A stretch of 64,000 nucleotides of DNA from Propionivibrio soli (GTDB taxonomy: Bacteria > Pseudomonadota > Gammaproteobacteria > Burkholderiales > Rhodocyclaceae), in NCBI RefSeq assembly GCF_025770765.1, contig NZ_JANZKY010000003.1, positions 186,001-250,000 of the forward strand, read 5' to 3'. A program made the translations under genes and the position numbers. Position 1 is the first letter of the stretch; every line of letters starts with the position of its first letter. Positions 11,489 through 29,397 of the stretch are shown here, in pieces. Under the pieces are notes generated by a model, which saw only the letters and a list, made by a program, of their open reading frames with translations, searched no databases and was not told the DNA's origin.

Positions 11489-11525
11489 TTCGCGGGGCGT
11501 GTTGCCACAAAACCGCAGCGCTGAG

Positions 11526-13419: not shown

Positions 13420-13427
13420 GGTCTTCC

Positions 13428-14156: not shown

Positions 14157-14222
14157 GATGGGTGCAACTTATTGTTCTGGTCTTCGATTCGTTAGGGAAC
14201 GATCCGTCAAGCACCAGGAAAC

Positions 14223-14702
14223 TCAGTGCTTCATTCCTCCGTGCGCCGCGGCAGGCATCGCAGGTGCTGACTGTATGCGGCGGACAGGAGCGGCAATGTG
14301 CTGGGTCGAGCCGTCATCAAACGTGAGATCGATCGGCACTTCGTCGCCTTCCTGAAGCGGCTTCGTCATGTCAATCAGCATGACATGGTAGCTGCCTGGC
14401 TTGAGTTCGGTGCGGCCACCCGCCTTGATCTCGATGTCCGGGACGGGGCGCATTTTCATGACGCCGTTTTCATTGAGATGGGTATGCAACTCGACGGTCT
14501 TGGCGGCAGGGCTTGCGGCACGGATGAGCTTGCGATCAGCGGCGCTACTGTTGGAAATGACCATGAACGCGCCGGTGGTCGGCGCGCCGGGCGGCACGAG
14601 ACGAACATAGGGATCCTGGACCGCGATGCCGTCATCGGCATAGGTCGTGGGCGGCAATGTCGCGCACAGCAGCAGGCTCAGACCAATCAGTACTCGGCGC
14701 AT
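14223..14702 (-). CDS. Periplasmic copper chaperone PCu(A)C
   Basis: A 159-residue exported protein of the PCu(A)C family, which binds Cu(I) in the periplasm and passes it to the CuA site of cytochrome oxidase. After the signal peptide (MRRVLIGLSLLLCATLPPTTYA) comes the cupredoxin-like domain, with the HxnM...HxM site visible as ELHTHLNENGVMKM and SYHVMLID. A His/Met-rich tail (AAAHGGMKH) may add copper ligands. I chose the start at 14702 because TAGGAGGAA precedes it at ideal distance. It is the last gene of a three-gene copper operon with SCO1. Confidence 0.92.
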   Translation of the reverse strand: MRRVLIGLSLLLCATLPPTTYADDGIAVQDPYVRLVPPGAPTTGAFMVISNSSAADRKLIRAASPAAKTVELHTHLNENGVMKMRPVPDIEIKAGGRTELKPGSYHVMLIDMTKPLQEGDEVPIDLTFDDGSTQHIAAPVRRIQSAPAMPAAAHGGMKH

Positions 14703-14759
14703 CGTATTCCTCCTAGGAAACGTCACGGAGGACTTGGCCATGCTGCCTGACCGGTTTGC

Positions 14760-15380
14760 TCACTTCCGCAACGTACGGATCATATCAATGATCGCTTGGG
14801 GTGGCGAGCCGTGCGGCAACTGTGCAATCAGCTTCCCGCTGGCATCGATGACGTAGGTGAACGACGTGTGGTCGACGGAATACGGCTTGCCGTCGTCCGC
14901 CTTCTGTTTCATGTACCGAACGCCGTATTGCCGGGCTACCCGCGCGATATCGTCCACCGACCCCGTGACACCGACGATTTGAGGGTGAAAGAAGGGCGCA
15001 TAGGCTTTCAACACGTCGGTCGTGTCGCGCTCAGGATCGACAGAGACGAATACGCCGGCGACACCGGCCTGCTCTTCCGGAGTCAGCATCGAAAACGCTT
15101 GTCCCATGGCCGACAAGGCCGTTGGGCAGACATCGGGACAGAACGTGTAGCCAAAATAGACCAGCACGATGCGGCCGCGATAATCGGCGAGCGATAACGG
15201 TCCTTGGGGTCCTTGCAAGGAAAAATCTCCACCGGGAGGCAGGGAGGGGGCATGAGACCCCGGCGTGTCGTTCGATGCGCGGTTAGCGGTATCCGTTGCC
15301 GGCGGTTGCCAGAAAAAGGCAAGCCAGACGAGTAGGACCCCCAGGATCAGCGCGCTCGCAATCAGGATACGCTGCTTCAT
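14760..15380 (-). CDS. SCO1/SenC family copper-delivery protein
   Basis: A 206-residue membrane-anchored periplasmic thioredoxin-fold protein. The N-terminal helix (MKQRILIASALILGVLLVW) is followed by the copper site CPDVC and the distal His in SVDHTSFTYVID. SCO proteins help to load copper into the CuA centre of cytochrome c oxidase, in concert with PCu(A)C encoded next. The ATG at 15380 matches a standard start; a further 13 codons upstream are open but unlikely. It sits between the PCu(A)C gene and a small membrane protein gene on one transcript. Confidence 0.93.
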   Translation of the reverse strand: MKQRILIASALILGVLLVWLAFFWQPPATDTANRASNDTPGSHAPSLPPGGDFSLQGPQGPLSLADYRGRIVLVYFGYTFCPDVCPTALSAMGQAFSMLTPEEQAGVAGVFVSVDPERDTTDVLKAYAPFFHPQIVGVTGSVDDIARVARQYGVRYMKQKADDGKPYSVDHTSFTYVIDASGKLIAQLPHGSPPQAIIDMIRTLRK

Positions 15381-15393
15381 TGATGAGCCCTTG

Positions 15394-15867
15394 TCAGGAA
15401 CCGCCGTGCGCTGCAACATCGAAGTGGAAAGGCACGGCGAGGCGCTTCCCGTTTCGGGTAATGATGAACGTTGCTGCCCATTTCATCCTTCCCGTCACGC
15501 ATACCGGGAGCATCGCTTGGCCCGTGAATCGCGAGCCGTTTGCCGTCAGCGGAGTTCGGTTATAGCCCATGTCCATGTCGACACCCTGAAAATCGACTTC
15601 CAATTTCTCCGCTTGGGTGTCGGATAGCTTTACTGATACAGCCAAGGGTTTGACAGCCGGGATTGGGCGCGGGGTGATGTCGACGACGATTTCGCCCGCT
15701 TCCGGCAGAGGCACCGTGCAAGTACTATTGTTCAGATCGCAGGCCGCCACCGGAAGCTCTAGATCAGGTGTCGGATGGGCGGCCTTCCAGTACTTGTAGG
15801 CGATAACAGTGATGACGGCGAGCGCTAAAACGGCAACGATGCAGACAAGGAATATCGGTTTGCGCAT
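15394..15867 (-). CDS. Membrane-anchored periplasmic protein of unknown function in copper operon
   Basis: A 157-residue protein with an N-terminal transmembrane helix (PIFLVCIVAVLALAVITVIAYKYW) and a periplasmic domain predicted to be beta-rich. Cys43 and Cys50 (AACDLNNSTC) and a third Cys (MLPVCVTG) are visible, as is a Met-rich VDMDMGYNRT. It is the first gene before SCO1 and PCu(A)C with a 13-base gap, so a role in copper handling or oxidase assembly is likely from context. The shape resembles FixH/YtkA-like domains, but I cannot confirm a family. Confidence 0.75.
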   Translation of the reverse strand: MRKPIFLVCIVAVLALAVITVIAYKYWKAAHPTPDLELPVAACDLNNSTCTVPLPEAGEIVVDITPRPIPAVKPLAVSVKLSDTQAEKLEVDFQGVDMDMGYNRTPLTANGSRFTGQAMLPVCVTGRMKWAATFIITRNGKRLAVPFHFDVAAHGGS

Positions 15868-16252
15868 GCAGGTTAGTCAGCGTCGGTGGAATTTCAGGTA
15901 ATTACGGGCTGGCGTATCGCCGATTTTCTATACAAATTCGGTTATGGGCGTTGTTTCGGATGGTCTCCATGTCCGAATCTAGAAGCGTGTACCCCTTAAG
16001 TCAACGACTCCGAGGTATATAGCGGAAGGCGGGCGAGAGGCCGCACGAACAGGTGCTTCGCCCCGGCTAACGGCGGTTGTTCTTATCCGATAGGCATGGA
16101 ACTTGCGGCAGACGTGACGCGAACGGGTTGTTCGTCTACGATACTCGCCGCTTTCACGCGAAACTGACGTCGGCTGGCGGATGAGGATTGGGTTTGGCGG
16201 CTTCCGCTTCGATGTTGCGACGTTGCACCGAGGAAACGAAATCCAGCTATTC
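15868..16252. other. Divergent intergenic region, no gene supported
   Basis: These 385 bases separate the minus-strand copper operon from the plus-strand NirDL-type gene and must hold both promoters. I see AT-rich patches (near 15930-15945, and TATATA near 16016). I find no clean FNR/ANR box, terminator or open frame with protein-like composition. Confidence 0.3.
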
Positions 16253-17224
16253 ATGGAAAACGCACTCGACTCTCATCTGCTGAACGATTTTCAACGCGAT
16301 TTTCCGCTTTGCCCGGCTCCTTTTGCCGAGTTGGCGGCGAAGCTCGGTGTGGCGGAGAAAGCGGTTCTCGCGATGCTTGAGCAATTGCGCCGAGACGGCA
16401 AGATTTCGCGAGTAGGCGCCGTTTTTGCGCCAAAGCGGATCGGCGCCTCAACCTTGGTGGCGATGGCCGTGCCGGAAGAGAAAGCGGGCATCGTCAAGGA
16501 CGCAGTCAATCGTTTCCCTGAAGTCACGCACAACTACGAACGCGAGCATCGCTACAACCTCTGGTTCGTGGTGACCGCCGGGTCGGACGGCAGGCTACAA
16601 GCCGCGCTTGGGGCAATTGCCCGTGCCGCCGGTTATCCGCTCGTTGCGCTGCCTTTGGTTCAGGAATACCAGGTTGAACCCGAATCCGTGACCGAACCGC
16701 CCGCTACGGCGGCGAATACGGGGACCCCGCACGTGCGGGCCGAAACCTTCTCGCCGCCCCGGCCTCTGGACGAATTGGATCGCCGGCTGGTCGTGGCTTT
16801 GCAGGAGGGTATCCCGCTCTTCATCCGGCCGTTCTCGGTGCTTGCCAGCCGGGTCGGCTGTGACGAGAGCGAGGTCATCGAACGGGTACGCAGTTGGAGC
16901 GATGAGGGGTTGATTAAGCGTTTCGGGGTGGTCGTGCGCCAGCCCGAGCCAGCCGTCGGCGTGGACGCGCTCCTTGTGCATGACGTGCCGGATCAGGAGG
17001 CGGAGGTCATCGGTGAAAGGTTGGCCGCCGAACCCGGCGTATCCCTTTGTGCGCAACGTCAACGCGCTTTACCCGGCTGGCCTTACAACCTTTTCTGCAT
17101 GGTTCACGGAAGCTCGCGGGATGAGGTCATGGACAAGATTGCCGGCCTCCGCGATCGCCTGGCGCTTTCGCGCTATCCGAGCGACGTTCTGTTCTCGCGC
17201 GAGCGGCGAAAATCCGCACGGTGA
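16253..17224 (+). CDS. Fused NirDL-type siroheme decarboxylase (Lrp/AsnC-like)
   Basis: A 323-residue protein made of two Lrp/AsnC-like modules (about 1-150 and 170-320). Each has an HTH-like part and a RAM-like part with the signature of heme d1/alternative heme enzymes: HNYEREHRYNLWFVV in the first half and CAQRQRALPGWPYNLFCMVHG in the second. NirDL and AhbAB decarboxylate siroheme to 12,18-didecarboxysiroheme on the way to heme d1 or to heme by the siroheme route. No nirS, nirF or nirJ gene is nearby. The alternative reading, an AsnC transcription factor, is less likely given these motifs. I chose the ATG at 16253; an upstream start at 16181 would add 24 residues. Confidence 0.8.
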   Translation: MENALDSHLLNDFQRDFPLCPAPFAELAAKLGVAEKAVLAMLEQLRRDGKISRVGAVFAPKRIGASTLVAMAVPEEKAGIVKDAVNRFPEVTHNYEREHRYNLWFVVTAGSDGRLQAALGAIARAAGYPLVALPLVQEYQVEPESVTEPPATAANTGTPHVRAETFSPPRPLDELDRRLVVALQEGIPLFIRPFSVLASRVGCDESEVIERVRSWSDEGLIKRFGVVVRQPEPAVGVDALLVHDVPDQEAEVIGERLAAEPGVSLCAQRQRALPGWPYNLFCMVHGSSRDEVMDKIAGLRDRLALSRYPSDVLFSRERRKSAR

Positions 17225-17310
17225 TCGATGGTCAGTTGTGAACTTTTTCCTTGCCGGTCATCGCGTCGCGCCCTACAGTAACGTATCGCGTTAGGACCGG
17301 ATGCAGACCG

Positions 17311-17508
17311 ATGTCCGCAGGCAATGATTCTCTGGAATTGATTGACGATCTCGAACACTGCGCGGTCTGCCAGCACAGTGTCGACGTCCGGGGAATGGCC
17401 CAGATCGTTTGCTTGGCGCACTTGGATATCCGGCAACCTACGCAAACCTCGGTTTGCAGCGAGTTCGAGCCGAAGCGAGGGAAAAAGCCGGCTATTCGGC
17501 TTGATTGA
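17311..17508 (+). CDS. Small cysteine-containing protein, unrecognised
   Basis: A 65-residue open frame 86 bases downstream of the NirDL-type gene on the same strand. It is hydrophilic, with four cysteines spaced C17xxC20-x13-C34-x14-C49 and nearby histidines (H16, H22, H37), which would suit a small metal site. Codon composition and the acidic start (SLELIDDLEHCAVCQ) look protein-like. No strong Shine-Dalgarno is present. It fills most of the otherwise empty gap of about 380 bases before the cphA end. I do not recognise it, and it may be spurious. Confidence 0.4.
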   Translation: MSAGNDSLELIDDLEHCAVCQHSVDVRGMAQIVCLAHLDIRQPTQTSVCSEFEPKRGKKPAIRLD

Positions 17509-17603
17509 TCCCGGGGCGTCAAGCTCGCCCGCCGTCCCCGCGGCAATTGACCCGACGGCCGAAAGACGATGGTCGCGCGGACTCGGATCCGGCGGCTCTT
17601 CCT

Positions 17604-20186
17604 TCAGGATTCAGCGACCCGCTTGGCAATGTGCGCGAGGGCTTCCTCCACCTGGTCGATGAGAATCAGGCAAATATCGTTGGGTTGTAGCGCCGCCATC
17701 GCTGTGTCGATCGCCACAAACTCGCCACGGATTTCTTGCACGTCCTTGGCTCGTTTTGCGTTTGCCAGCCCCTCGCGCAATAAGGCAAGCACCTCGCCGT
17801 CGGCGCGCCCGCGCTGGCATTGATCCTGATAGAGCACGATGCTGTCGAATGCGTCACCGAGGATTTCAGTCTGTTGGCGGATGTCCTCATCGCGCCGATC
17901 GCCAGCACCGCTGATGACAACTGAACGCCGGGCGCCAGCTTGCGTGGGCATAGCGTCAATCGCCTGCACGAGCGCGCGGATGGCGTCCGGGTTGTGCCCA
18001 TAGTCGGCGATCAGCGTGGCTCCGCGGTACTGGAACAGGTTGAAGCGCCCAGGGGCCGATTGCGCGTCATTGACGAAGCCGGCGAGCCCGGCGCGGATTG
18101 CCGCCCATTCGAAGCCAAGCGCCCAGCCGGCGCCAATAGCCGCCATGGCATTCTCGATCTGGAAGCCGATGGTTCCGTTGGCGGTCACCGGAATGTGGGA
18201 AAGCGGCAGGCGTTCGGAGAATGAGCCTTCGGCGGCGACGATATCGTTGCCATCGAGGTAGATGATGCGCTTGCCCTGAGCGCGGTGCATCGCCATGACG
18301 GGATGGCTACGGTCCCGGGCGAAGAACGTTACCTTGCCGGGACAGGAGTCGGCCATGCGCGCAACCATCGGGTCGGCGGCGTTGAGTACCGCGACGCCGA
18401 CATCTGGTTTCACGTTCTGCACGATGACGCGCTTAACGACCGAGAGGTCCTCGACCGTGCTGATGTAGGAAAGCCCGAGATGGTCGCCGGCGCCGATGTT
18501 GGTCACCACGGCGACGTCGCAGCGATCGAAGCCCAAGCCTTCGCGAAGTACGCCGCCGCGCGCCGTTTCAAGCACCGCCGCATCGACGTCCGGGTGAAAG
18601 AGAACGTTGCGCGCGCTTTTCGGGCCGCTGCAGTCGCCGGTGTCGATGCGCCGACCAGCGATGTAGACGCCGTCGGTGCTTGTCATCCCGACGCGCAGTC
18701 CGGTGTTGGCGAGAATGCTGGCGATCAGGCGCACGGTCGTTGTTTTTCCGTTGGTACCTGCCACGGCAACGAGTGGAATGCGGGCGTCGTCGCCCTCTTC
18801 GAACATGTTGGCGATGATCGCTTCGCCGACCGGTCGCCCCTTGCCGAACGATGGCTGCAGGTGCATGCGCAGCCCGGGGGCGGCATTCAGTTCGACGATT
18901 CCGCCGCCTTGCTCTTCGAGTGGGCGCAAGACGTTGTTGCAGACGATATCGACCCCGGCGATATCGAGACCGACCATCTGTGCCGCGGCTACGGCGCGAG
19001 CAGCAAAGTCCGGATGAACGTCGTCGGTCACGTCAGTGGCGGTACCGCCGGTCGAGAGATTGGCATTGTTGCGCAGGATGACGCGCTGTCCCTTGGCGGG
19101 TATCGAGTCCGCCGTCAGTCCGTCCTCGGCGAGGCGGGCGAGGGCGATGTCGTCGAAACGGATTTTCGTCAGCGAGGTGGCGTGGCCTGTACCCCGTCGC
19201 GGGTCCTTGTTGACCTGTTCGACGAGTTCGCGAACCGTGTGGACGCCGTCGCCGATGACCATCGGCGGTTCGCGGCGCGCCGCCGCGATGACTTTATCGC
19301 CGACAACGAGGATGCGGTGATCGTGGCCCTGGAGGTAGCGCTCGACGAGCACCTCGTCGCTGATCTTGAAGGCGGCCGCATAAGCCCTTTCGATTTGCTC
19401 GCGCGTCGTGAGGTTTACGGTGACCCCTTTGCCCTGGTTGCCATCCTGTGGCTTGACGACAATCGCGCCGCCGATTTCGCCGGCGGCCGCCCAGGCGTCT
19501 TCGGCGCTTGAGACCGGGCGGCCGACGGGAACAGGGACGCCGGCCGATTGCAGCAGCGTCTTCGTCAGTTCTTTATCTTGCGCAATCGATTCGGCAACGG
19601 CGCTTGTGCGATCGGTTTCCGCCGCCTGAATGCGCCGCTGTTTGCTGCCCCACCCGAACTGCACCATGCTGCCTTCGGTGAGGCGGCGGTAAGGAATGCC
19701 GCGGGCTACCGCCGCATAGACGATCGATCCGGTGCTCGGGCCGAGGCGGACATCTTCGTCGAGCTCGCGCAAGCGGGTCAGGGCCGATGCCACGTCGAAA
19801 GGCGCGTCGTCGACGGCGGCCTGGCACAGCTCGCGGGCAAGCTCGAACGCCAGCCGGCCGACGGCCTCTTCGCTGTACTCGACGACCACCTGATAGACGC
19901 CAGGCTCGGTCGTCTGCGCGGTGCGACTGAACGTTACCGGGCATCCCGCCTGAGCTTCAAGGCCCAGTGTCGCAAATTCGAGCGCGTGCGCCATTGAAAC
20001 GACATCGCCGCTCGCGACGGGCTGCAGTAGGGCGATCTCTGGGAAGCGTTCGCGCAGGCGTGCTTCGAATCCCGGGATATTGCTGATGTCGCGTTCGTCT
20101 TCCGCGCATGAAACGATGGCTTCGATGGCGGTGTGGCGGCTCCACAGGTTTGGGCCGCGCAGCGCCCGAATGCGTGATACGTCCAT
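17604..20186 (-). CDS. cphA: Cyanophycin synthetase, full-length
   Basis: An 860-residue CphA, which builds the storage polymer cyanophycin (an Asp backbone with Arg side chains) without ribosomes. An N-terminal domain (about 1-160) is followed by an ATP-grasp domain (about 195-460; VVKPQDGNQGKGV, IVELNAAPGLRMHL). A Mur-ligase half then has P-loop GTNGKTTT (about 477-484) and a complete C-terminal lobe (SAPGRFNLFQ, IADYGHNPDAI, ISGAGDRRDEDI). The length fits the family. It is the last gene of a minus-strand cluster after the shorter paralogue, 73 bases away. Confidence 0.95.
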   Translation of the reverse strand: MDVSRIRALRGPNLWSRHTAIEAIVSCAEDERDISNIPGFEARLRERFPEIALLQPVASGDVVSMAHALEFATLGLEAQAGCPVTFSRTAQTTEPGVYQVVVEYSEEAVGRLAFELARELCQAAVDDAPFDVASALTRLRELDEDVRLGPSTGSIVYAAVARGIPYRRLTEGSMVQFGWGSKQRRIQAAETDRTSAVAESIAQDKELTKTLLQSAGVPVPVGRPVSSAEDAWAAAGEIGGAIVVKPQDGNQGKGVTVNLTTREQIERAYAAAFKISDEVLVERYLQGHDHRILVVGDKVIAAARREPPMVIGDGVHTVRELVEQVNKDPRRGTGHATSLTKIRFDDIALARLAEDGLTADSIPAKGQRVILRNNANLSTGGTATDVTDDVHPDFAARAVAAAQMVGLDIAGVDIVCNNVLRPLEEQGGGIVELNAAPGLRMHLQPSFGKGRPVGEAIIANMFEEGDDARIPLVAVAGTNGKTTTVRLIASILANTGLRVGMTSTDGVYIAGRRIDTGDCSGPKSARNVLFHPDVDAAVLETARGGVLREGLGFDRCDVAVVTNIGAGDHLGLSYISTVEDLSVVKRVIVQNVKPDVGVAVLNAADPMVARMADSCPGKVTFFARDRSHPVMAMHRAQGKRIIYLDGNDIVAAEGSFSERLPLSHIPVTANGTIGFQIENAMAAIGAGWALGFEWAAIRAGLAGFVNDAQSAPGRFNLFQYRGATLIADYGHNPDAIRALVQAIDAMPTQAGARRSVVISGAGDRRDEDIRQQTEILGDAFDSIVLYQDQCQRGRADGEVLALLREGLANAKRAKDVQEIRGEFVAIDTAMAALQPNDICLILIDQVEEALAHIAKRVAES

Positions 20187-20259
20187 ATCCGATTTCCTTG
20201 TGTCTTTCGGTTACTCCGGATGTCGGTCATCCGTGTTCTGGCTCATGCCGGCGCGGATT

Positions 20260-22431
20260 TCAGTCGGCGAAGAAGGTTTCGATTCCGGTGCGCATGACGT
20301 CGAGCGAAACGTCCAGCGCCCAGGCGGCGGCTACGGCCGCCAGCACGTTCTCGATCTGGGCCTTGTCGTTTCCGCCGCCGGTCAGCGGAATGTCGGCAAG
20401 CCGCGCCAACGATTGTTCCCCTTGGCCGCTGGCGAGCATGACGTGTCCGTAACGCACGATCACGGCCCGCTTGCCCTGTTCGCGGTGCGCCGCGATGGCC
20501 GGCAAGTCCGGGTCGGCGGCGAAGTAGATTACCTCGCCATCGCACAACGATGCCATTTCGACGAGCATGGGCTCGCGGGCGTTGAGCACTGCGGCACCGC
20601 CAGGCAGCACGAGATCCACCTGTGTCCGCAAGACCGTGAATACGTTTTCCGGGGTTTCGACGTAGAAGCGGCCGGTATGGCGGGCGACGTCAACGTTCGT
20701 AACGATGCCGATCTGGCAGCGATCGTATGCGAGGCCCTTGCCGAGAATCTCATCCGTGCCGTTTTCAAAAACCGCGGCCTCGATCGCGCGGTTCATCAGA
20801 ATGCGATGAGCGGCTTCCCATGTTGCGCGGTCTCCGGACTCCGAGCGGCGGCGATCCAGGTACAAGCCGTCGCTGCAAGCAAGCCCCGTGTGCTTTCCGG
20901 ACAGCGTAAGCAGGCGAGCGACGAGGCGAGCGACCGTCGTCTTGCCGCAGCTCCCGGTAATACCGATGACGGGAACCCGGCCGTTGTCGCCGTTGGGGAA
21001 CAGGTGATCGATGATGGCGCGCCCCACCGGGCGTGCTTCGCCCGTCGCCGGCTTGATGTGCATGAGCAAGCCTGGACCTGCGTTGACTTCGACGATGGCG
21101 CCGCGCTGTTCTTCGAGCGGGCGGGAGATGTCTTCACACACCAGATCGACACCGGCGATATCGAGGCCGACGATGCGCGCCGCCAGCGAAGCGGTTTCGG
21201 CCACGCTCGGGTGCACGGAGTCGGTGATGTCGCAGGTGTGATTTCCGGTGCGGATGATGAGCACTTCGCGTCCGGCCGGGGGGATCGAATCCGGCGTGAA
21301 ACCCTGGCGCGTGACTTCATGCAGGGCAACGGGGTTCTCGCTGAGGACGACCACGTCGAGCGGAAACTCCTCGGCCGCACCTCGCCGCGGGTCGGAGTTG
21401 ATTTGCAGGTCGATGAGTTCGTTGATGGTCGATTTGCCGTCGCCGACTACGGCCGCGGTTTCTCCGCGCGCGGCCGCGATCATGCGGCCGCCGACGATGA
21501 GCAGGCGATGCTCCGAGCCGCGAATGAAACGTTCAACGATGACGCCGCTGCCTTCTTCCAGGGCAGCGGCGTAGGCGCTTTCGACTTCCTCGCGCGTCAT
21601 CAGATTGGTGAACACGCCACGTCCGTGATTGCCGTCGGTCGGTTTGACGACGACCGGCAGGCCGATATCCTCGGCAGCCGCCCACGCATCTTCGGCGCTG
21701 TCGACAATGCGGCCCTCGGGAATCGGCACGCCGCAAGATTGGAGCAGGTTTTTCGTCAGATCTTTGTCGCGGGAGATCGTCTCGGCGATCGCGCTCGTGC
21801 GGTCGGTTTCTGCGGTCCAGATGCGCCGGCTGCGGACGCCGTAGCCGAGCTGGACGAGGTTCCCGTCAGCGAGGAGGCGGATGGCGGGGATACGCCGTTC
21901 CTTGCTGGTCGCCGCCTCGACAATGCAGCCGGTGCTGGGACCCAGCAGCTTGCGCTCGGCCATATCGCGCAAACGCTCCACCGTCGCAGGAACGTCGAAG
22001 GGGCGGTCCTCGATGGCCGCCATGACGAGTTCGCGACCCGCTTCCAGGCAGGCGCGCGTGACTTCCTCGTGCCAGGCGCGGATGACGACCTTGTACACAC
22101 CGGTCAGATGCGTCTGCCGCGCCTTGCCGAAGCCGCCCGGCATGCCGGCGAGGTTCTGCAGTTCGAGCGAAACGTGTTCCATGATATGCGCCGGCCACGT
22201 GCCTTCTTCCAAGCGACGCAGGAAACCGCCGCGCTCACCGTAGCTGCAACGGTGCTCGATCAGGGTGGGCAGAAAGGCTTTCAGCCGGTCGACAAAACCG
22301 GGCAGGACATTCGACGGGCAGTCTTCCAGCGCGCCGATGTCGACCACGGCCTCGATGACTGGCCGGTACGTCCAAATATTCGGTCCGCGCAGGTAGCGGA
22401 CTTCGAGAAACTTGATGTCTTTCGTTTTCAT
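20260..22431 (-). CDS. CphA-like cyanophycin synthetase lacking the C-terminal Mur-ligase lobe
   Basis: A 723-residue paralogue of CphA. N-terminal (GPNIWTYRPVIEAVV) and ATP-grasp (VVKPTDGNHGRGVF, IVEVNAGPGLLMHI) regions and the Mur central domain with intact P-loop GSCGKTT are present. It stops at DVMRTGIETFFAD, about 137 residues short of CphA, so the Rossmann-like lobe that contacts the amino acid is absent. Paired long and short genes (cphA and cphA') are known in betaproteobacteria. The short form may need CphA as partner or use another substrate; both are inference. It precedes cphA in the cluster. Confidence 0.9.
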   Translation of the reverse strand: MKTKDIKFLEVRYLRGPNIWTYRPVIEAVVDIGALEDCPSNVLPGFVDRLKAFLPTLIEHRCSYGERGGFLRRLEEGTWPAHIMEHVSLELQNLAGMPGGFGKARQTHLTGVYKVVIRAWHEEVTRACLEAGRELVMAAIEDRPFDVPATVERLRDMAERKLLGPSTGCIVEAATSKERRIPAIRLLADGNLVQLGYGVRSRRIWTAETDRTSAIAETISRDKDLTKNLLQSCGVPIPEGRIVDSAEDAWAAAEDIGLPVVVKPTDGNHGRGVFTNLMTREEVESAYAAALEEGSGVIVERFIRGSEHRLLIVGGRMIAAARGETAAVVGDGKSTINELIDLQINSDPRRGAAEEFPLDVVVLSENPVALHEVTRQGFTPDSIPPAGREVLIIRTGNHTCDITDSVHPSVAETASLAARIVGLDIAGVDLVCEDISRPLEEQRGAIVEVNAGPGLLMHIKPATGEARPVGRAIIDHLFPNGDNGRVPVIGITGSCGKTTVARLVARLLTLSGKHTGLACSDGLYLDRRRSESGDRATWEAAHRILMNRAIEAAVFENGTDEILGKGLAYDRCQIGIVTNVDVARHTGRFYVETPENVFTVLRTQVDLVLPGGAAVLNAREPMLVEMASLCDGEVIYFAADPDLPAIAAHREQGKRAVIVRYGHVMLASGQGEQSLARLADIPLTGGGNDKAQIENVLAAVAAAWALDVSLDVMRTGIETFFAD

Positions 22432-22560
22432 CGTCGATGGGGTGGCGAAGGGCGCCGGAAAGGGCTGATCAGGGGTTGTCTATTGACCCAATAACGCGGG
22501 TCGGCGGATTCGGCTGACGCTTGACCTTTGGACAGCCGATGACGGGGGAACATTCGAGGT

Positions 22561-23034
22561 TCAAAGGAAACGATCCAGGATCTTGCGGCTCTGCGTATCC
22601 AGCGCATACCGGTCGCGGATCAGGTAATGGATACCGTTGCTGTCGGCAATGAGCAATCCCGGCGAGGTAAGGCGGCGGATATCCTCTTCGCCCTTGAGCA
22701 CGAGGTCGGTATCCCCATGATTCGTTTTGACCTTCCAGGTACTCGGTGTGGCAAAGCTCGAAACACTGAAGATGCACTCGATGACCGGCATGAATTCGCG
22801 GGCAGCAAGTTCGCTGGCAACGAGATCGCGCAAAGGCGAGGGAAGGTCGTCGAGCCGGTCGATCCACGCTAACTCATGGCCGTGCGGATCGACGAGGGCA
22901 ATACCCTGGTCCGGGGCGCCGATCGGGAAAGCGCGTACCGGAACCACGCCCTCGTGCCGTTCGCCGTCCTCGGTGGTCAGCACGAGACGGCCGAAGGCAT
23001 CGCGTTCGAGGCGGTAATCGGGCAAACCGGTCAT
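22561..23034 (-). CDS. DUF1854 protein of the cyanophycin locus
   Basis: A 157-residue soluble protein with no signal peptide or membrane segment. Recognisable features are LPDYRLERDAFGRLVLTTEDG at the start, an acidic middle (ALVDPHGHELAWIDRLDDLP) and a C-terminal WKVKTNHGDTDLVLKGEEDIRRL segment. This matches my knowledge of DUF1854 proteins encoded beside cphA in betaproteobacteria; their function is unknown. Its start overlaps the ABC transporter stop by four bases (ATGA), so the two proteins are probably made in fixed proportion. The gap of about 130 bases to the next cphA-like gene shows no gene. Confidence 0.85.
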   Translation of the reverse strand: MTGLPDYRLERDAFGRLVLTTEDGERHEGVVPVRAFPIGAPDQGIALVDPHGHELAWIDRLDDLPSPLRDLVASELAAREFMPVIECIFSVSSFATPSTWKVKTNHGDTDLVLKGEEDIRRLTSPGLLIADSNGIHYLIRDRYALDTQSRKILDRFL

Positions 23035-25382
23035 TCGCGATCTCCTTCGTCCTTGCCGACGATTACCGGCGGGCGGGATTCGCCTTCGGAATCGACGTTG
23101 CGCGCCTGCGCCTGATAGAGGCGGTAGTAGTGGCCCTCACACGCCATCAATTCGTCGTGCGTGCCAACCTCGACGACGCTGCCACGATCGAGCACTACGA
23201 GCCGGTTGGCTTCACGCAAGGTGGACAGCCGGTGGGCGATGGCGATTGTCGTGCGTCCGCGCACAAGATTGTCGAGGGCCTTCTGAATTTCTTTCTCGGT
23301 CGTCGTATCGACCGACGATGTGGCTTCGTCGAGAATCAGGATCTTCGGGTCGATGAGTAGCGCGCGCGCGATTGAGATGCGTTGGCGTTCGCCGCCCGAT
23401 AACGCCTGCCCGCGTTCGCCAACCAGCGAATCGTAACCGTGCGGCAGGCGCAGAATGAACTCATGGGCGTGCGCGGCACGCGCGGCGGCGACAATCTCCT
23501 CGCGTGTCGCATCCGGTTTGCCGTAGGCAATGTTCTCCGCGATGGTACCGAAAAACAGGAAGGGTTCCTGCAGCACGAGCCCGATGTGCCGACGGTACTC
23601 GGCGACGGGCAGCGAGCGGATATCCACGCCGTCGATCAGGATCGCGCCCTCGGTCACGTCGTAGAAACGGCAGATCAGGTTGACCATCGTGCTCTTGCCC
23701 GAGCCGCTATGGCCGACGAGGCCAACCATTTCGCCCGGCTCAATGGTCAGGCTGACATCGCGGGTGACGCTGCGCGTCCCGTAGCGGAAACCGACGCCGC
23801 GCAACTCGATGCGGCCGGTAACCGACGACAGATGCACGGGGTTGGCCGGTTCCGGCACGCTGGAAACATGATCGAGGACGTCGAAAATGCGCTTGGCGCC
23901 GGCGGCGGCCTTCTGGGTTACCGAGACAATCCTGCTCATCGAATCGAGGCGTGTATAGAAGCGTCCGATGTAGGCGAGGAAGGCGGTCAGCACGCCGACC
24001 GAAATGTCGTTTTGCGAGATCTGCCAGATGCCGAACGCCCAGATGATGAGCAGGCCGATCTCGGTGAGCAGCGTCACCGTCGGGCCAAAGAGCGACCAGA
24101 CTTTGTTGACTTTGTCATTGACTTCCAGATTGTGCGCATTGGCGGCGCGGAAGCGGGCGGCTTCCCGCTGTTCCTGTGCGAAGGCCTTGACGACCCGGAT
24201 GCCGGGGATCGTATCGGCTAGCACGTTGGTAACCTCGGCCCAGATGCGGTCGACGCGTTCGAAACCGGTGCGCAGCTTCTCGCGCACGGTATGGATCAGG
24301 AAGGCGATAACGGGCAGGGGCAGGAGCGTGACGAGCGCGAGCCAGTGGTTGATCGATGCCAGGATCACCGTGGTCATGGTGATCATCAACACGTCGGTGG
24401 CGAAATCGAGGAAGTGTAGTGAGATGAAGATGTTGATACGGTCGGTTTCCGAACCGATGCGCGCCATCAGGTCCCCCGTCCGCTTGCCACCGAAATACTC
24501 CTGCGACAGTTTCAGCAGGTGTTCGTAGGTAGTTGTGCGCAGGTCGGCACCGATGCGCTCCGAAACCAGCGCCAGGATGTACGTGCGTGCCCAACCGAGC
24601 ACCCAGGCGAGAAGTGCGGCGCCGAGCAGCCCCGAAAGGTAGAGCGTGACGCGCCCGCGGTCGATCGGCATACCGTTTTGATAAGGGATCAACACCTTGT
24701 CCATCAACGGCATGGTCAGATACGGCGGCACCAGCGTCGCGGCTGTCGAAGCGAGCGAGAGCAGGAAACCGGCCAGCAAACGCCAACGGTACGGGCGGGC
24801 GAAGCGCCAAAGGCGGAACAGTGTCCAGGTCGAGGGCGGTGTGTGAATTTCCTTGCTGCATACAGGGCATTCCTCCTGCCCGGCGAGCAGCGGCGTTTCG
24901 CAGTTCGGGCACAGCGCCTGGGCCGGAGGAGGCGGCATTTGCTTCGTCAGCACGTAGGTAAGCTGACGGTCGAAATGCTCGATGAGTCGCCCGGCGGCGA
25001 TATCGCTCCCAAGGGTATAGCGCCAGTGGGCGAGCCGCGAGGAGATGTCGAAAAGCTCCAGGGTACCGACACCCGCATGGTCACGTCGGGTGAGCCTCAG
25101 ACCATCGCGAAAAGAGAAGCTCTGCCAGCCCTGTCCATGGGTACTCGCTTCGCCCGTATTTGAATTCCCGGGGGCGGCCAGCAAGCGGCGATCGGTCAGG
25201 ACAACGATGCTTGAGGTGAAATGAAGCTGGGCGTCGAGGTCGATCTCCAGCCACGAAAGGATGCGCTCATCGGCCTCGAGTTGCGTGTCCACTTCCGTCC
25301 GCCAGTGCTCCGGAAACGGAAGGCTGGAAGCGTTGACGGCAGGCGGCGGTAGGGTTGAGGACGACGGGGAGCGGACAGTCAT
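23031..25382 (-). CDS. ABC exporter with PH-like and zinc-ribbon N-terminal extension (cyanophycin-associated)
   Basis: A fusion-type ABC half-transporter of 783 residues. Residues about 20-150 form a soluble domain with FTSSIVVLTDRRLLAAPG, typical of bacterial PH-like folds. Residues about 158-175 form a CxxC-x10-CxxC zinc ribbon (CPNC, CPVC). Six transmembrane helices follow (about 200-485), then the nucleotide-binding domain: Walker A GHSGSGKST (about 556), signature LSGGERQ (about 660), Walker B ILILDEATSS. The start at 25382 is preferred over an upstream GTG. It opens the cluster leading to DUF1854 and the two CphA genes; the cargo is unknown. Confidence 0.9.
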   Translation of the reverse strand: MTVRSPSSSTLPPPAVNASSLPFPEHWRTEVDTQLEADERILSWLEIDLDAQLHFTSSIVVLTDRRLLAAPGNSNTGEASTHGQGWQSFSFRDGLRLTRRDHAGVGTLELFDISSRLAHWRYTLGSDIAAGRLIEHFDRQLTYVLTKQMPPPPAQALCPNCETPLLAGQEECPVCSKEIHTPPSTWTLFRLWRFARPYRWRLLAGFLLSLASTAATLVPPYLTMPLMDKVLIPYQNGMPIDRGRVTLYLSGLLGAALLAWVLGWARTYILALVSERIGADLRTTTYEHLLKLSQEYFGGKRTGDLMARIGSETDRINIFISLHFLDFATDVLMITMTTVILASINHWLALVTLLPLPVIAFLIHTVREKLRTGFERVDRIWAEVTNVLADTIPGIRVVKAFAQEQREAARFRAANAHNLEVNDKVNKVWSLFGPTVTLLTEIGLLIIWAFGIWQISQNDISVGVLTAFLAYIGRFYTRLDSMSRIVSVTQKAAAGAKRIFDVLDHVSSVPEPANPVHLSSVTGRIELRGVGFRYGTRSVTRDVSLTIEPGEMVGLVGHSGSGKSTMVNLICRFYDVTEGAILIDGVDIRSLPVAEYRRHIGLVLQEPFLFFGTIAENIAYGKPDATREEIVAAARAAHAHEFILRLPHGYDSLVGERGQALSGGERQRISIARALLIDPKILILDEATSSVDTTTEKEIQKALDNLVRGRTTIAIAHRLSTLREANRLVVLDRGSVVEVGTHDELMACEGHYYRLYQAQARNVDSEGESRPPVIVGKDEGDRE

Positions 25383-25576
25383 TATTCGCGTGTTATACAG
25401 GCGGCCCGATGCCACCGAAGGACGCGAGTATACCGCCTTGGCGCAAGGACCGCGAAGCGCGCGGAAGTCCCCGGCTTCTGCTTTCTCCTAACGCATGTCA
25501 GGTACGCCGGATGACAAACGGTACCGGCTGGGCGTCCTGGCACAAAGAATCGATGTCAAGACGCCTGCCAACCGGG

Positions 25577-26035
25577 TCAGGGCTTGAAAGGTTCGATATC
25601 ACCCGGCTTGCGCAGCATCTTGTTGACCTCGTCGAGATGCATTTCCTCTTCGACGATCAGTTCGCGGGCATATTCCTCTATCAGCACTGAGTGGCCTTCC
25701 GCCTCGCCGAGCAGTTCGTAGTAGGCCTCGAGCGCGGCTTTCTCGTGATCGAGGCTTTCGCGGAGGATGTCGCCGATGTCATGTTTGCGCGATTCGAGCA
25801 ACTGCCCGATCTTCAGCGACGGATGGCCGCCGAGCAACGTTACGAGTTCACCCGCCCGGCGCGCGTGCATCAGGCTCTCGTCGGCGTTCTCCTTGAGCCA
25901 GCCGACGATCGGGATGCGGTTGTAGCCATAGACCATCAGCGCGTAATGCGTGTAGCGCACGACCCCGGCGAGTTCGGCTTCCAGGATGCGGTTGAGGATC
26001 GCGATGAGGGAATTCGTCTTCTCTGCATTCGGCAT
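25577..26035 (-). CDS. bfr: Bacterioferritin-like ferroxidase
   Basis: A 152-residue four-helix ferritin-like protein. Putative di-iron ligands fall on the expected helices: Glu in LEAELAGVVRY, Glu/His in ENADESLMHARRAGE, Glu in ESLDHEKAAL, Glu/His in IVEEEMHLDEV. This pattern fits bacterioferritin, which oxidises and stores iron. No clear heme-ligand Met in the family position can be confirmed by eye. GAGGAGAG lies just upstream of the ATG. It is divergent from the iron-uptake genes on the other side of a 199-base regulatory gap that carries Fur-like palindromes. Confidence 0.85.
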   Translation of the reverse strand: MPNAEKTNSLIAILNRILEAELAGVVRYTHYALMVYGYNRIPIVGWLKENADESLMHARRAGELVTLLGGHPSLKIGQLLESRKHDIGDILRESLDHEKAALEAYYELLGEAEGHSVLIEEYARELIVEEEMHLDEVNKMLRKPGDIEPFKP

Positions 26036-26162
26036 GATGGTCTCTCCTCTGATGCCCCGACCACGGCGCGGGTGAATCCATCTGACCTACACAATCGGCG
26101 ACGGTTCCGGCTCGCTTTGCGCAGCATCCGGTTGTGCGTCGATATCGATCGGGAAAAATATA

Positions 26163-26190
26163 TTGATAGTGAGAATGGTTCTCATATAAG
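26163..26190 (+). promoter_or_regulatory. sigma70-type promoter of the barrel-feoA-feoB operon
   Basis: TTGATA (26163-26168), a 16-base spacer and TATAAG (26185-26190) match the -35 and -10 consensus at five of six positions each. The promoter faces the 26235 gene and is overlapped almost completely by a Fur-like palindrome, so iron repression by occlusion is expected. Confidence 0.7.
26165..26183. promoter_or_regulatory. Fur box 1
   Basis: Nineteen bases beginning GATAGTGAGAATGG match the Fur consensus (GATAATGATAATCATTATC) at 14 of 19 positions. They hold the perfect inverted repeat GAGAA-N3-TTCTC. The box lies across the -35 to -10 interval of the iron-uptake promoter. Confidence 0.75.
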
Positions 26191-26192
26191 AT

Positions 26193-26205
26193 GCGAACCG
26201 TTCTC
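26193..26205. promoter_or_regulatory. Second Fur-like palindrome
   Basis: GCGAA-CCG-TTCTC repeats the architecture of box 1 with one mismatch in the arms, centred 22 bases downstream, about two helical turns away. Tandem Fur dimers would fit; evidence is symmetry and spacing only. Confidence 0.5.
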
Positions 26206-26234
26206 AAAATTTAAACTGTGAAGGAATCTCGATC

Positions 26235-27050
26235 GTGTCGTTTACTTGCCTATCGCCGTCTTTTCGAAAACATGCCGCCCGCGCGGCCACTTTTTCCGTC
26301 GCCGCGTGTTCGGCCGCGACTGTGTTCGCTTTGCAACCATTGATTACCGACGATACCGGAACGCAAGGCGCTGGCGGCAATCAGCTTGAATTCTCTCTGA
26401 CCCGCGATCGTGCCAAGGTGGCGGGTGACACCGAACGTACGCATTCGCTCGACGGTACGTATACGAGGGGAGTCAGCGAAACAGTTGATGTCTTTGCCGG
26501 TGTCGGATACTCGAGAATCCGTGCCAGCGGACCCGGCGGTGACGCAAGCGGCCTCGGCAATCCTTCGCTGGGTTTGAAGTGGCGGTTTTTCGACAACGCG
26601 GACAGCGGCACCAGCCTGGCCGTCAAGCCCGAAGTCCTGTTCCCGGTCAGTTCCTCGAGGGAGAGTGAAGGGCTAGGCACCGGGAGAACGTCCGGCAACC
26701 TTACGTTGATTCTGTCGCAGGAACTGCCGTTTGGTGCCTTGCATGTCAACCTGGGAACCGGGCGCGAGCGCTTCCGTGACACAGCGTCCAACCCGAATAC
26801 GACGACGCACCGTGCATCGCTTGCGCCCGTTTGGAATGTCAGCGAAGGGTGGATCCTGGCCGCCGATTTCGGCCTCGAATCGGCCCGTTCGGCGGGGAGC
26901 CGGGTCAATACCAAGTATGCCGAGCTGGCAGCGATCCATTCTTTGAACAAAGACGTTGATCTGGCGTTCGGCCTGATGCGTGCCAGAGACGACGAGCATC
27001 CGCGCACGACGACGAGTACCGCGACCGCGGGCGTCACGTGGCGTTTCTAG
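26235..27050 (+). CDS. Predicted outer-membrane beta-barrel upstream of feoAB
   Basis: A 271-residue exported protein. A signal-like N-terminus (to about residue 33) is followed by alternating amphipathic beta strands with Gly/aromatic turns, and the last residue is Phe (GVTWRF). This is the usual outer-membrane barrel signature. The pattern resembles the MetA-pathway/phenol-degradation-type transporter family, whose members are poorly characterised. The start is GTG at 26235 with AAGGAA upstream. It sits first in a Fur-type-regulated operon with feoA and feoB, so a role in iron passage across the outer membrane is inferred. Confidence 0.75.
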   Translation: MSFTCLSPSFRKHAARAATFSVAACSAATVFALQPLITDDTGTQGAGGNQLEFSLTRDRAKVAGDTERTHSLDGTYTRGVSETVDVFAGVGYSRIRASGPGGDASGLGNPSLGLKWRFFDNADSGTSLAVKPEVLFPVSSSRESEGLGTGRTSGNLTLILSQELPFGALHVNLGTGRERFRDTASNPNTTTHRASLAPVWNVSEGWILAADFGLESARSAGSRVNTKYAELAAIHSLNKDVDLAFGLMRARDDEHPRTTTSTATAGVTWRF

Positions 27051-27074
27051 TGTTGAGGGTGAAGGAGTTACGCG

Positions 27075-27374
27075 ATGAGGGGTGAAAAAGGAAAAAGGGG
27101 TGGGACGCTGGATGGCGCCACGATCGGACAGGTATTGACGGTGCAGTGCATCGAAGCTCCCGCCGGGGCCCCGGAATGGGGGCGTTGGCTGGAAGAGATC
27201 GGCTTCGTCGTCGGCGAACGCGTGATGCTGATGGCCCGGGCGTTACCGGGAGGCGACCCGTTGGTCGTTCGCGTCGGCCAGTCGACGTTTGCGTTGCGGT
27301 GCGCGGAAGCCGCGTGTATCGCGGTAAGTCCTGAACAGGCGTTGGAACTACAGCTTGAAGGGAGCCCGGCATGA
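27075..27374 (+). CDS. feoA: FeoA-domain protein
   Basis: A 99-residue protein with the SH3-like FeoA core: WLEEIGFVVGERVMLMARALPGGDPLVVRVGQSTFALRCAEAA. The conserved ending, in which a basic/hydrophobic strand is followed by Ala-rich residues, is normal for FeoA. FeoA binds FeoB and supports ferrous iron uptake. A charged N-terminal extension (MRGEKGKRGG) precedes the domain. AAGGAG lies before the ATG at 27075. The stop overlaps the feoB start by four bases. Confidence 0.9.
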   Translation: MRGEKGKRGGTLDGATIGQVLTVQCIEAPAGAPEWGRWLEEIGFVVGERVMLMARALPGGDPLVVRVGQSTFALRCAEAACIAVSPEQALELQLEGSPA

Positions 27375-29251
27375 ACCAGGCTGTCATTCACGTCCATCCT
27401 TCTGGGCCGCTGCTGGCCTTGGTCGGCAATCCGAACTGCGGTAAGACGGCGCTTTTCAATCTCTTGACTGGCAGCCGGCAAAAGGTCGCGAATTACGCCG
27501 GTGTCACGGTTGAACGCAAGGAAGGGCGGTTCACGACGCCCGCCGGAAAAACCTTGCGCGTGCTCGATCTTCCCGGCGCCTACAGCCTTTACCCGCGTTC
27601 GCCCGACGAACGTGTCACGTGCGATGTGCTGTTCGGTCGGGCCACGGGAGAGAAACGTCCGGATCTCGTGGTCTGCGTCGTTGATGCGACCAACCTGCGC
27701 CGCAATCTTCGCCTCGCGCTTGCCGTCAAGCGACTCGGCCTTCCGTGCGTGGTGGCCCTCAATATGGCAGACCTTGCGGAGAGCCGCGGCATCCGGATCG
27801 ATCCGGATGCGCTGGCCGCCGAACTCGGCATGCCGGTCGTGAGCACGGTAGCCATCAAACGTGCGGGGGTTGAGTCGCTGCTCGAGTTATTCGACGACCA
27901 GGCCGTGTGGCGCACCGCGTCTCCCGCGTCGCCCAGTGTTCATGACGCGGGCGATCACGTGGCCGTACGGAACATTCTGCAGCGTCTCGGTCTGGACGAC
28001 GTTGTTCCTCATACGCCGAGCGACCGTATCGACGCCGTCGTTCTACATCCCGTCGTTGGGCCGGTGCTGCTGGCGTTTGTCCTCTTCCTTATCTTTCAGG
28101 CCGTCTTTGCCTGGGCGGAAGTACCGATGACCATGATCGAGGACGCGACCACGGGTCTCGGCCAACTCGTGTCAAGCGCGCTGCCGGACGGCATGCTACG
28201 CAGCCTGCTGGTTGACGGAGTGATCGCCGGTGCCGGAGGCGTCCTCGTCTTCCTGCCGCAGATTGTGATCCTCTACTTCTTTATCCTCGTTCTCGAAGAA
28301 TCGGGTTATCTGCCGCGTGCGGCCTTTCTGCTCGATCGTTTGATGGGTAGCGTCGGTTTGAGCGGGCGTTCCTTTATCCCGTTGCTTTCGAGTTTCGCAT
28401 GCGCGATTCCGGGCATCATGGCCGCCCGCACCATCGCCAACCCACGCGACCGGCTAGTGACGATTATGATCGCGCCGCTGATGACCTGCTCGGCGCGACT
28501 TCCGGTATATGCACTCTTGATCGGGGCTTTTGTTCCCCAACGCGAGCTCTGGGGCGTGCTCGAACTGCAGGGCGTGGTGCTGCTCGGGCTTTATTTCGCT
28601 GGCATTGTCGGTGCGATGGCCGTGGCTTGGATACTGAAGCATTTCACGAGCGCCGGACGGCAGGTCCGCCCGCTGATGATGGAGTTGCCGAGCTACCACG
28701 TGCCAACCGTGCGTAACGTTGCCATTGGTATCTGGCAGCGCATCACGATCTTCGTTAAGCGTGTCGGCGGCATCATTCTTTTCCTCACGGTTGCGCTTTG
28801 GGTGTTGGCGACTTTTCCCTCGCCGCCTGATGGCGCTACCGAACCGGCTATTGAATACAGCTATGCAGGACGTATGGGCAAGGCGCTCTCGACGGTATTC
28901 GAACCCATCGGTTTCAACTGGCAAATCAGTGTCGCGCTGGTTCCCGGCCTTGCCGCCCGTGAGGTGGCCGTCAGTGCGCTGGGGACTGTCTATTCACTTT
29001 CCGCCGAAGATGAGGAAGAGGCGGCCAAGGAGTTGACGCCCGTCATTTCCCAAACCTGGAGTCTGGCGACGGCATTCTCCCTGCTTGCCTGGTACGTCTT
29101 TGCACCCCAATGCCTGGCTACTTTAGCCGCGGTGAAACGCGAGACCGGGGGCTGGAAGATGCCGATCATCATGGCGGTGTATCTGTTCGGGCTGGCCTAC
29201 CTAGCGTCATTCCTCACGTACCGTGCGGCGGTATGGCTTGGTTTGGGGTAG
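27371..29251 (+). CDS. feoB: Ferrous iron transporter FeoB
   Basis: A 626-residue inner-membrane Fe(II) transporter with a cytosolic G-protein domain: G1 GNPNCGKT (residues 19-26), G2 in GVTVERKEG, G3 DLPGAYSL, G4 NMAD. Gate and core membrane regions follow (FIPLLSSFACAIPGIMAART, TCSARLPVYALL). At 626 residues it is shorter than E. coli FeoB (773). The linker between G domain and membrane part is compact and there is no FeoC-like tail. It is coupled to feoA by ATGA overlap and is probably controlled by the Fur-like boxes at 26165-26205. Confidence 0.95.
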   Translation: MNQAVIHVHPSGPLLALVGNPNCGKTALFNLLTGSRQKVANYAGVTVERKEGRFTTPAGKTLRVLDLPGAYSLYPRSPDERVTCDVLFGRATGEKRPDLVVCVVDATNLRRNLRLALAVKRLGLPCVVALNMADLAESRGIRIDPDALAAELGMPVVSTVAIKRAGVESLLELFDDQAVWRTASPASPSVHDAGDHVAVRNILQRLGLDDVVPHTPSDRIDAVVLHPVVGPVLLAFVLFLIFQAVFAWAEVPMTMIEDATTGLGQLVSSALPDGMLRSLLVDGVIAGAGGVLVFLPQIVILYFFILVLEESGYLPRAAFLLDRLMGSVGLSGRSFIPLLSSFACAIPGIMAARTIANPRDRLVTIMIAPLMTCSARLPVYALLIGAFVPQRELWGVLELQGVVLLGLYFAGIVGAMAVAWILKHFTSAGRQVRPLMMELPSYHVPTVRNVAIGIWQRITIFVKRVGGIILFLTVALWVLATFPSPPDGATEPAIEYSYAGRMGKALSTVFEPIGFNWQISVALVPGLAAREVAVSALGTVYSLSAEDEEEAAKELTPVISQTWSLATAFSLLAWYVFAPQCLATLAAVKRETGGWKMPIIMAVYLFGLAYLASFLTYRAAVWLGLG

Positions 29252-29264
29252 ACGGCTGAGACGC

Positions 29265-29321
29265 GGAAAAGAAGGGCCGGACTTCCCGGGGCGGCCTTTG
29301 CAACGCCTCAGGAGTCCGGCC
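29265..29321 (-). terminator. Second hairpin of a tandem terminator (minus strand)
   Basis: GGCCGGACT (29275-29283) pairs with AGTCCGGCC (29313-29321). Read on the minus strand the hairpin is followed by CTTCTTTT. The long loop makes it weaker than the adjacent one. Confidence 0.45.
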
Positions 29322-29355
29322 AAAAAAAGCGCCTCTCGTATTTCTGCGAGAGGCG
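29322..29355 (-). terminator. Rho-independent terminator after the CitMHS gene
   Basis: CGCCTCTCG (29330-29338) pairs with CGAGAGGCG (29347-29355), a nine-base stem with an eight-base loop. On the minus strand it is followed by seven T. It lies 43 bases past the transporter stop codon. Confidence 0.85.
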
Positions 29356-29397
29356 AACCACCACAACGAGGGAAGGTAACTTTTGTAGCGGTATCGG

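Follow-up and report, generated by a model that had tools for sequence, protein, structure and literature searches.

In the genome of Propionivibrio soli, we have analysed a stretch of 64,000 nucleotides (contig NZ_JANZKY010000003.1, positions 186,001 to 250,000; hereafter the window, to which all coordinates without a locus label refer) that carries a cyanophycin cluster of four genes, all on the minus strand and transcribed in the order ATP-binding cassette (ABC) half-transporter, DUF1854 protein, CphA-short and CphA-full. The transporter gene (25415-23031) has a GTG start and encodes 794 amino acids (aa) with matches to NF052233 (CphA_assoc_ABC), PF00664 and PF00005; an in-frame ATG at 25382 corresponds to residue 12 and would give a protein of 783 aa. 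It is followed by the gene of the 157 aa DUF1854 protein (23034-22561; NF052234 CphA_assoc_prot, PF08909) and by those of CphA-short (22431-20260, 723 aa) and CphA-full (20186-17604, 860 aa). The initial annotation of this DNA had placed these four genes on one strand with the first two overlapping by four bases, and both statements hold, the overlap being 23031-23034.

That these genes belong together is already known. The NCBIfam models NF052233 and NF052234, described as “cyanophycin metabolism-associated”, represent the same partnership, and the window proteins lie far above their curated cut-offs (1423.8 bits against 880 for the ABC protein, 233.9 against 150 for the DUF1854 protein, which also scores 169.9 bits with PF08909 at a cut-off of 26.8); these are annotation families, and their names give no mechanism. 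Likewise, the “Group 1” cphA cluster of activated-sludge bacteria, reported in 2023, has two cphA genes and an ABC gene and no cphB (PMC10687191), and the section of that paper on the cluster makes no mention of DUF1854 or of an active-site split. The exporter and its partner, called uncharacterised in the initial annotation, are so as to function, yet not as to their association with cyanophycin. In the open-licence literature, subscription papers being outside the search, no paper was found on the active-site split described below or on DUF1854, nor one joining cyanophycin, an ABC transporter and DUF1854.

Co-occurrence of the transporter, DUF1854 and CphA

Four families (PF08909, NF052233, TIGR02068 and TIGR02069) were searched in 250 genomes of the order to which P. 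soli belongs. DUF1854 (PF08909) was found in 85 of them, spread over 48 of 121 genera, and the NF052233 transporter (E ≤ 1e-250) in the identical set of 85. True CphA, defined by a TIGR02068 match with E < 1e-100 (the weakest match kept had 3.8e-173 and the next 7.1e-95, the cut falling in the gap), was present in 94 genomes, all the 85 included; the overlap far exceeds chance, with a Fisher p for DUF1854 with CphA of 5e-57, a value that is not corrected for relatedness and overstates the evidence because the species are related. The nine genomes with CphA only are six of one genus (G225, G269, G310, G348, G382, G412), G296, and two incomplete metagenome-assembled genomes (MAGs), G305 (86% complete) and G319 (79%). 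Each of the 31 genomes in which CphA-short was read has the transporter, though cut in G305, and 30 of them also have DUF1854; the miss in G305 is probably due to an assembly edge, since the ABC gene runs off the contig end beside two cphA genes.

Forty regions were taken from genomes for comparison, mostly module loci and some for CphA alone, unlinked halves or pairs without CphA. Of the 29 loci among them with both an ABC gene and a CphA, 28 show a divergent orientation of ABC relative to cphA; in L133 (G294), as in the window, the genes all point the same way. In three genomes (G388, G366, G329) the ABC-DUF1854 pair lies far from the cphA genes, yet both are retained. The stable partnership proposed in the initial annotation is therefore found even without linkage, and the survey of co-occurrence that it called for gave CphA in 85 of 85 pair-bearing genomes of the order.

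The unlinked cases also bear on the suggestion, made for the Group 1 clusters, that the genes form a composite transposon, in which case linkage would say little about function. Two flanking insertion sequences are reported in PMC10687191. In the window there is no sign of this, as no long repeats flank the cluster (12000-31000), and neighbour clustering over 31 loci and the window gave no additional family that recurred beyond 5 of the 32 loci, shadow frames aside, the larger clusters being the four genes and presumed shadow frames of them; this clustering did not search transposases one by one. Together with the co-occurrence of the pair and cphA when unlinked, these results led us to reject a mobile cassette, which we regard as very improbable.

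Outside the order, DUF1854 was found in four genomes of other orders among the 185 in a class sample (G001, G043, G091, G184) and in one genome of another class among the 349 in a phylum sample (G603). CphA is present in G091 and G603. G001 and G184 carry DUF1854 with an ABC protein of the same layout (37-39% identity) and no CphA, their best TIGR02068 matches being Mur-ligase-like (E 7e-33 or weaker), and G043, likewise without CphA, has a fragment of DUF1854. In the orders of the CphA-less genomes a match was seen in 2 of 4 and 1 of 3 genomes, starting genomes included, and in the class of G603 in 1 of 48. A contig search with two CphA-less DUF1854 sequences returned only three MAG loci, all in genomes already counted, and a plasmid search with two queries gave no DUF1854 copy; the neighbours of the CphA-less loci (10 proteins scanned, of which 7 in L070, 2 in L071 and 1 in L072) looked uninformative. 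The fragment in G043 (L072, 9944-10276) is a DUF1854 remnant of 110 aa with no ABC match nearby. An NnrS gene lies close to it, as one does to the intact pair in G184, and G043 may thus show a CphA-less pair in decay. Moreover, the control archaeon Sulfolobus acidocaldarius has a PF08909 match above the cut-off and none to NF052233, and the domain is therefore older or wider than cyanophycin metabolism.

The CphA-less pair thus exists and is rare in the sampled genomes. The initial annotation would have given up the link to cyanophycin had the pair proved widespread without cphA; there is a weak trace of this, with two intact distant pairs and one DUF1854 fragment against 85 of 85 pairs with CphA in the order. 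G001, G184 and the archaeal DUF1854 show that the pair does not strictly require CphA, and, given the pairs of G001 and G184, its substrate may not be cyanophycin. Perhaps it exports something else, such as a lipid, a drug or another peptide, and was recruited beside cphA through shared regulation or physiology, which would suit the CphA-less relatives, the archaeal DUF1854 that occurs where NF052233 has no match, and the similarity of the transmembrane and ATPase domains to exporters of the MsbA/MDR type. This is opposed by the complete co-occurrence within the order, unlinked cases included, and by 31 polar or aromatic positions of the transmembrane domain that are conserved in the CphA-type ABC proteins and different in both CphA-less ones, and we consider a foreign substrate unlikely.

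Active sites of the two CphAs

Cyanophycin synthetase of the CphA1 type has an N domain that is an endo-cyanophycinase; its motif, Cx19HxxEH, is complete in 83% of CphA1 and hence not essential. In SuCphA1, the mutation H267A abolishes the activity of the G domain, and D585A H586A that of the M domain (PMC9262961). Contacts to the incoming aspartate are made by N394, R323 and R458, any of which impairs activity when changed to Ala, and a stabilising effect on the acyl phosphate is proposed for H267 and R309 (PMC9427784). CphA-full of the window scores 973.6 bits with TIGR02068 (cut-off 850) and is by score a member of the CphA1 family (SuCphA1, TeCphA1). It has the residues of the aspartate pocket and of the arginine-adding M domain; its N motif is lost (PHEF), and Gln251 stands at the H267 position. 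CphA-short, which shares the CphA1 architecture up to the M domain, stays under the same cut-off (761.8 bits), has no Mur_ligase_C match and passes the subfamily model NF010623 (1069.1 against 877). It carries the complete motif (C62-x19-H82xxE85H86) and His269 at the H267 position, keeps the P-loop KTT of the M domain, and has lost the aspartate-pocket residues and the ARGG and DH of the M site.

This pattern is general. We have aligned 31 CphA-short and 46 CphA-full sequences (52 minus 6 of duplicate genomes), sorted by best BLAST match, with the same sets obtained upon regrouping on the ARGG motif and with numbering by alignment to 7lg5. The CphA-full rows include those of G305, whose ABC gene is cut by the contig end, and of G091, from another order; the CphA-full of L118 (two overlapping frames) and of L122 (contig end) were omitted for length, and the CphAs of G225, G269, G296, G310, G348, G382, G603 and the second locus of G239 were kept apart. 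The complete N motif is found in 31/31 CphA-short and 0/46 CphA-full; conversely, the NLSTGG loop, R323 and R458 of the aspartate pocket are found in 46/46 CphA-full and 0/31 CphA-short, as is ARGG, and the DH of the M site in 46/46 and 4/31. The M domain of CphA-full has KTT, ETARGG and DH in 46/46, the residue preceding ARGG differing in two. R309 is present in all rows of both types. The H267 position is His in 30/31 CphA-short and 1/46 CphA-full, and Gln in the other 45. As for the M lid, 27 of the 31 CphA-short rows extend at most 22 residues past the start of the Mur_ligase_C region, and the other four extend 92-152. In a quick IQ-TREE tree the 31 short and 46 full rows form one branch each (SH-aLRT 100), with two short rows long-branched, which we read as one old split retained since. 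In L118 (10267-12850, G195), CphA-full is seen as two overlapping open frames, by a frameshift or an assembly error.

Hence, in these genomes and unlike in CphA1, the N site and the M site with the aspartate pocket reside in two separate proteins. Of the overall interpretation in the initial annotation, the four genes and their stable partnership stand, and, as with the “uncharacterised” association, its “truncated CphA” is not quite right: the protein is indeed shorter and has no Mur_ligase_C, but the term undersells it, as it keeps the N-domain hydrolase motif that is absent from CphA-full. Since CphA-full would be without the known primer route, and CphA-short could neither bind free aspartate in the known way nor add arginine, we consider a division of labour between them probable. 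In a genome with no recognised cyanophycinase, no other protein of the module bears a known motif for cutting cyanophycin, which makes CphA-short the best candidate for breakdown and primer making.

Several observations weigh against such a clean division. Three of the 46 CphA-full rows keep HxxEH with only the Cys gone (RHEH in two, NHEH in one). The main uncertainty is the Gln at position 267: CphA-full scores as a CphA1 while its G site is altered, and because H267A inactivates the G domain, its aspartate-adding activity is not certain; the Gln may lower that activity or change the role of the protein. As CphA-short keeps H267, the two proteins might share the G reaction in a different manner. 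In SuCphA1 the N domain works slowly (PMC9262961), and its role may be limited to making primers. In G603, which lies outside the order and has ABC and DUF1854, one CphA combines the N motif, the Gln and the M site, in a MAG with a contamination value of 8 whose contig ends within this gene, no CphA-short being seen there. Finally, the second locus of G239 has two diverged CphAs (L129, 5693-9082 on the plus and 10214-12847 on the minus strand) without the N motif, with Gln at 267 and with an intact M site, beside a cyanophycinase.

CphA-short also invites comparison with CphA2, the cyanobacterial dipeptide polymerase. Its G site would then repolymerise beta-Asp-Arg dipeptides, and the ABC protein would move or recover the dipeptide. 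As described for CphA2 (PMC9427784), CphA-short has a broken M site and in most rows no M lid, although the window copy keeps the KTT of the P-loop and four rows extend well past the lid start; it keeps H267 and R309 while the free-aspartate pocket is gone, and neighbouring genes of this kind were called cphA1 and cphA2 in PMC5178258. Yet the N-domain motif, which CphA2 does not have (PMC9262961), is present in every CphA-short, and this rules out a simple identity of the two. In sequence CphA-short is closer to CphA1, of which the best scores 516 bits while the CphA2 sequences of the PDB reach 182, and the ABC protein is of the exporter type, with no solute-binding protein recurring in the module. 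A CphA2-like role thus appears rather unlikely.

Cyanophycinase in the same order

TIGR02069 cyanophycinase matches were found in 39 of the 250 genomes (E ≤ 1e-3), 17 of them above the cut-off, and strong ones (at least 233 bits) in eight: the six CphA-only genomes of one genus listed above, G296 and G239. Seven of these eight are without ABC-DUF1854, all at least 93% complete, and G239 has both systems. The 94 CphA-positive genomes divide into 84 with the pair and no strong cyanophycinase, 7 with a strong cyanophycinase and no pair, G239 with both, and 2 with neither, which are the MAGs of 79% and 86% completeness. The cyanophycinase gene lies within a few kb of cphA in G225, G310, G348, G382, G296 and G239, and on a separate contig in G269. 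In G239, CphA-short, CphA-full, ABC and DUF1854 are located at 3.39 Mb, about 1.9 Mb from the two other CphAs and the cyanophycinase at 5.34 Mb. A system of cphA with cyanophycinase is thus an alternative within the same order, and the six of the seven genomes of this kind whose CphA was read (G225, G269, G310, G348, G382, G296) have the N motif, H267 and the M site in one chain. As of 2016, neighbouring cphA1 and cphA2 and no cyanophycinase were described for Betaproteobacteria (PMC5178258); if the order of P. soli is counted as betaproteobacterial, this no longer holds throughout.

The genome of P. soli itself gave no TIGR02069 match at E ≤ 1e-3 and so falls outside the cphA-cphB system; by “no cyanophycinase” we mean none strong by TIGR02069, as the CphE and CphI types were not searched with models of their own. 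A protein of the isoaspartyl-peptidase family (PF01112), with no evident signal peptide, is present in this genome and is a candidate for the last step of breakdown. For comparison, a recognisable cyanophycinase was reported in 658 of 1614 CphA1 genomes (PMC10206079). The alternation is not strict, which speaks against a clean split: among the 85 genomes with the module, 9 show a TIGR02069 match of one strength or another (E ≤ 1e-3), strong in G239, of 136-172 bits and over the cut-off in G396, G285, G251 and G205, and below it in G295, G366, G258 and G189. We infer that the weaker ones are other S51-type peptidases. That CphA-short replaces CphB is a tentative proposal, for which we put the chances at somewhat less than even.

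Near cphA and cyanophycinase, G225 has a second, Mur-ligase-like protein resembling the CphA M domain (L084, 11686-13443; TIGR02068 positions 474-860, 326 bits), and a similar one is seen in G296 (L083, 5566-7728; positions 478-759, 275 bits). These could be stand-alone arginine ligases or other peptide ligases.

The ABC transporter, DUF1854 and a proposed system

The ABC protein has the composition of an exporter-type half-transporter, with fused transmembrane and nucleotide-binding domains (PF00664 and PF00005) and all ATPase motifs intact in the window copy. A cytosolic portion (about residues 1-192) precedes the transmembrane domain (213-486) and the ATPase domain (552-700). In an alignment of 35 rows (33 CphA-type and 2 CphA-less; one cut by a contig end), the Walker A Lys, the catalytic Glu and the H-loop are kept in 34/34 readable rows, and the ABC signature in 33/34, the remaining one having LSGVERQ. 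The N-terminal cytosolic domain (residues 28-192; 24840..25334, minus strand) was predicted (predicted local distance difference test, pLDDT, 91.1) as a PH-like fold followed by a CxxC...CxxC stretch, a putative zinc ribbon whose two CxxC occur in 29 of the 35 rows. In Foldseek, its best matches were PH domains (probability about 1), with a best E of 1.6e-3 and none at 0.001.

The DUF1854 protein, which we read as cytosolic, was predicted as a beta-rich structure of two beta6-alpha halves (pLDDT 90.7, predicted template modelling score 0.59). The halves are seen in the predicted secondary structure alone, as hhalign of one with the other gave a probability of 4% and an internal repeat by sequence was discarded. 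Foldseek found no convincing relative, the best being a Plk4 polo box that we treat as weak (E 4.9e-4, template modelling score 0.20), and by sequence there was no relative in the PDB at E ≤ 10. Long open frames in G370, G285 and G258 had hinted at ABC-DUF1854 fusions; the two matches lie in different, overlapping frames, and these candidates were dismissed.

A PH-like domain on the transporter and a beta-rich partner are what might be expected if ABC-DUF1854 served to hold synthetase or granule in place at the membrane, or to act as a sensor that ties the amount of polymer to the state of ATP or substrate, transporting no cyanophycin peptide at all. The strict co-occurrence with the synthetases would fit this as well. 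However, the ATP-hydrolysis residues kept in every readable row go beyond the needs of an anchor and argue against a purely passive one, and the pair occurs without CphA in G001 and G184. We hold such a role to be possible and rather doubtful.

The surroundings of the cluster add a ferritin-like gene upstream (25577-26035, minus strand) and, downstream, an open frame on the plus strand (16181-17224) in which the alpha (AhbA) and beta (AhbB) families of siroheme decarboxylase are fused. Further away, two direct copies of 205 nt with 73% identity and a spacing of 722 nt (12705-12909 and 13427-13631) are perhaps tandem paralogous genes.

Taken together, we propose that the four genes are one copy of a conserved cyanophycin module without CphB, a “system II”, with split CphAs and an ABC-DUF1854 pair that moves a polymer-derived peptide; as a whole, we give this explanation a probability of roughly 0.45. 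Judging from its residues, CphA-full would be the polymerase, which keeps the aspartate pocket and the arginine-adding M site and has lost the N-domain hydrolase. CphA-short, a diverged paralogue, would most likely cut cyanophycin chains; this would yield primers for CphA-full and, where no cyanophycinase gene is found, probably also mobilise the store. The two probably form mixed oligomers. The ABC protein would be an active, presumably homodimeric exporter-type half-transporter with DUF1854 as its constant partner, and its likeliest role, as we infer it, is to move a beta-Asp-Arg oligopeptide derived from cyanophycin across the inner membrane; DUF1854 and the PH-like domain may dock the synthetase pair or gate the pump. 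Export of a cyanophycin peptide, taken by itself, seems to us unlikely on balance. A bolder version, a two-subunit machine in which a dedicated cutter replaces cyanophycinase beside its polymerase partner, ABC-DUF1854 exports beta-Asp-Arg oligomers, and cyanophycin is secreted or exchanged, is quite improbable as a whole. It should also be kept in mind, as a further point against the proposal, that two cphA homologues are reported for R. eutropha, in whose wild type no cyanophycin was seen (PMC11362209).

While the association with cyanophycin and the two-cphA cluster with an ABC gene and no cphB were known, what is new here is the co-occurrence of ABC and DUF1854 in one identical set of 85 genomes and its alternation with cyanophycinase, the complementary sites of the two CphAs, the transporter with an intact ATPase and a PH-like domain, and the rare pair without CphA. 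The alternation with cyanophycinase gives the transporter and DUF1854 a context beyond gene neighbourhood. How cyanophycin is handled in bacteria without CphB is left open in the 2016 and 2023 papers (PMC5178258, PMC10687191), the latter asking for analogues of cphB, and the split of the residues offers a direct and cheap test of the cutter, which would be CphA-short. Moreover, the split puts the making and the cutting activities in two genes, and as their balance in one enzyme is described as not tunable by expression (PMC9262961), this bears on cyanophycin production. If the bolder version is true, cyanophycin would be a secreted or exchanged product and not only an internal store.

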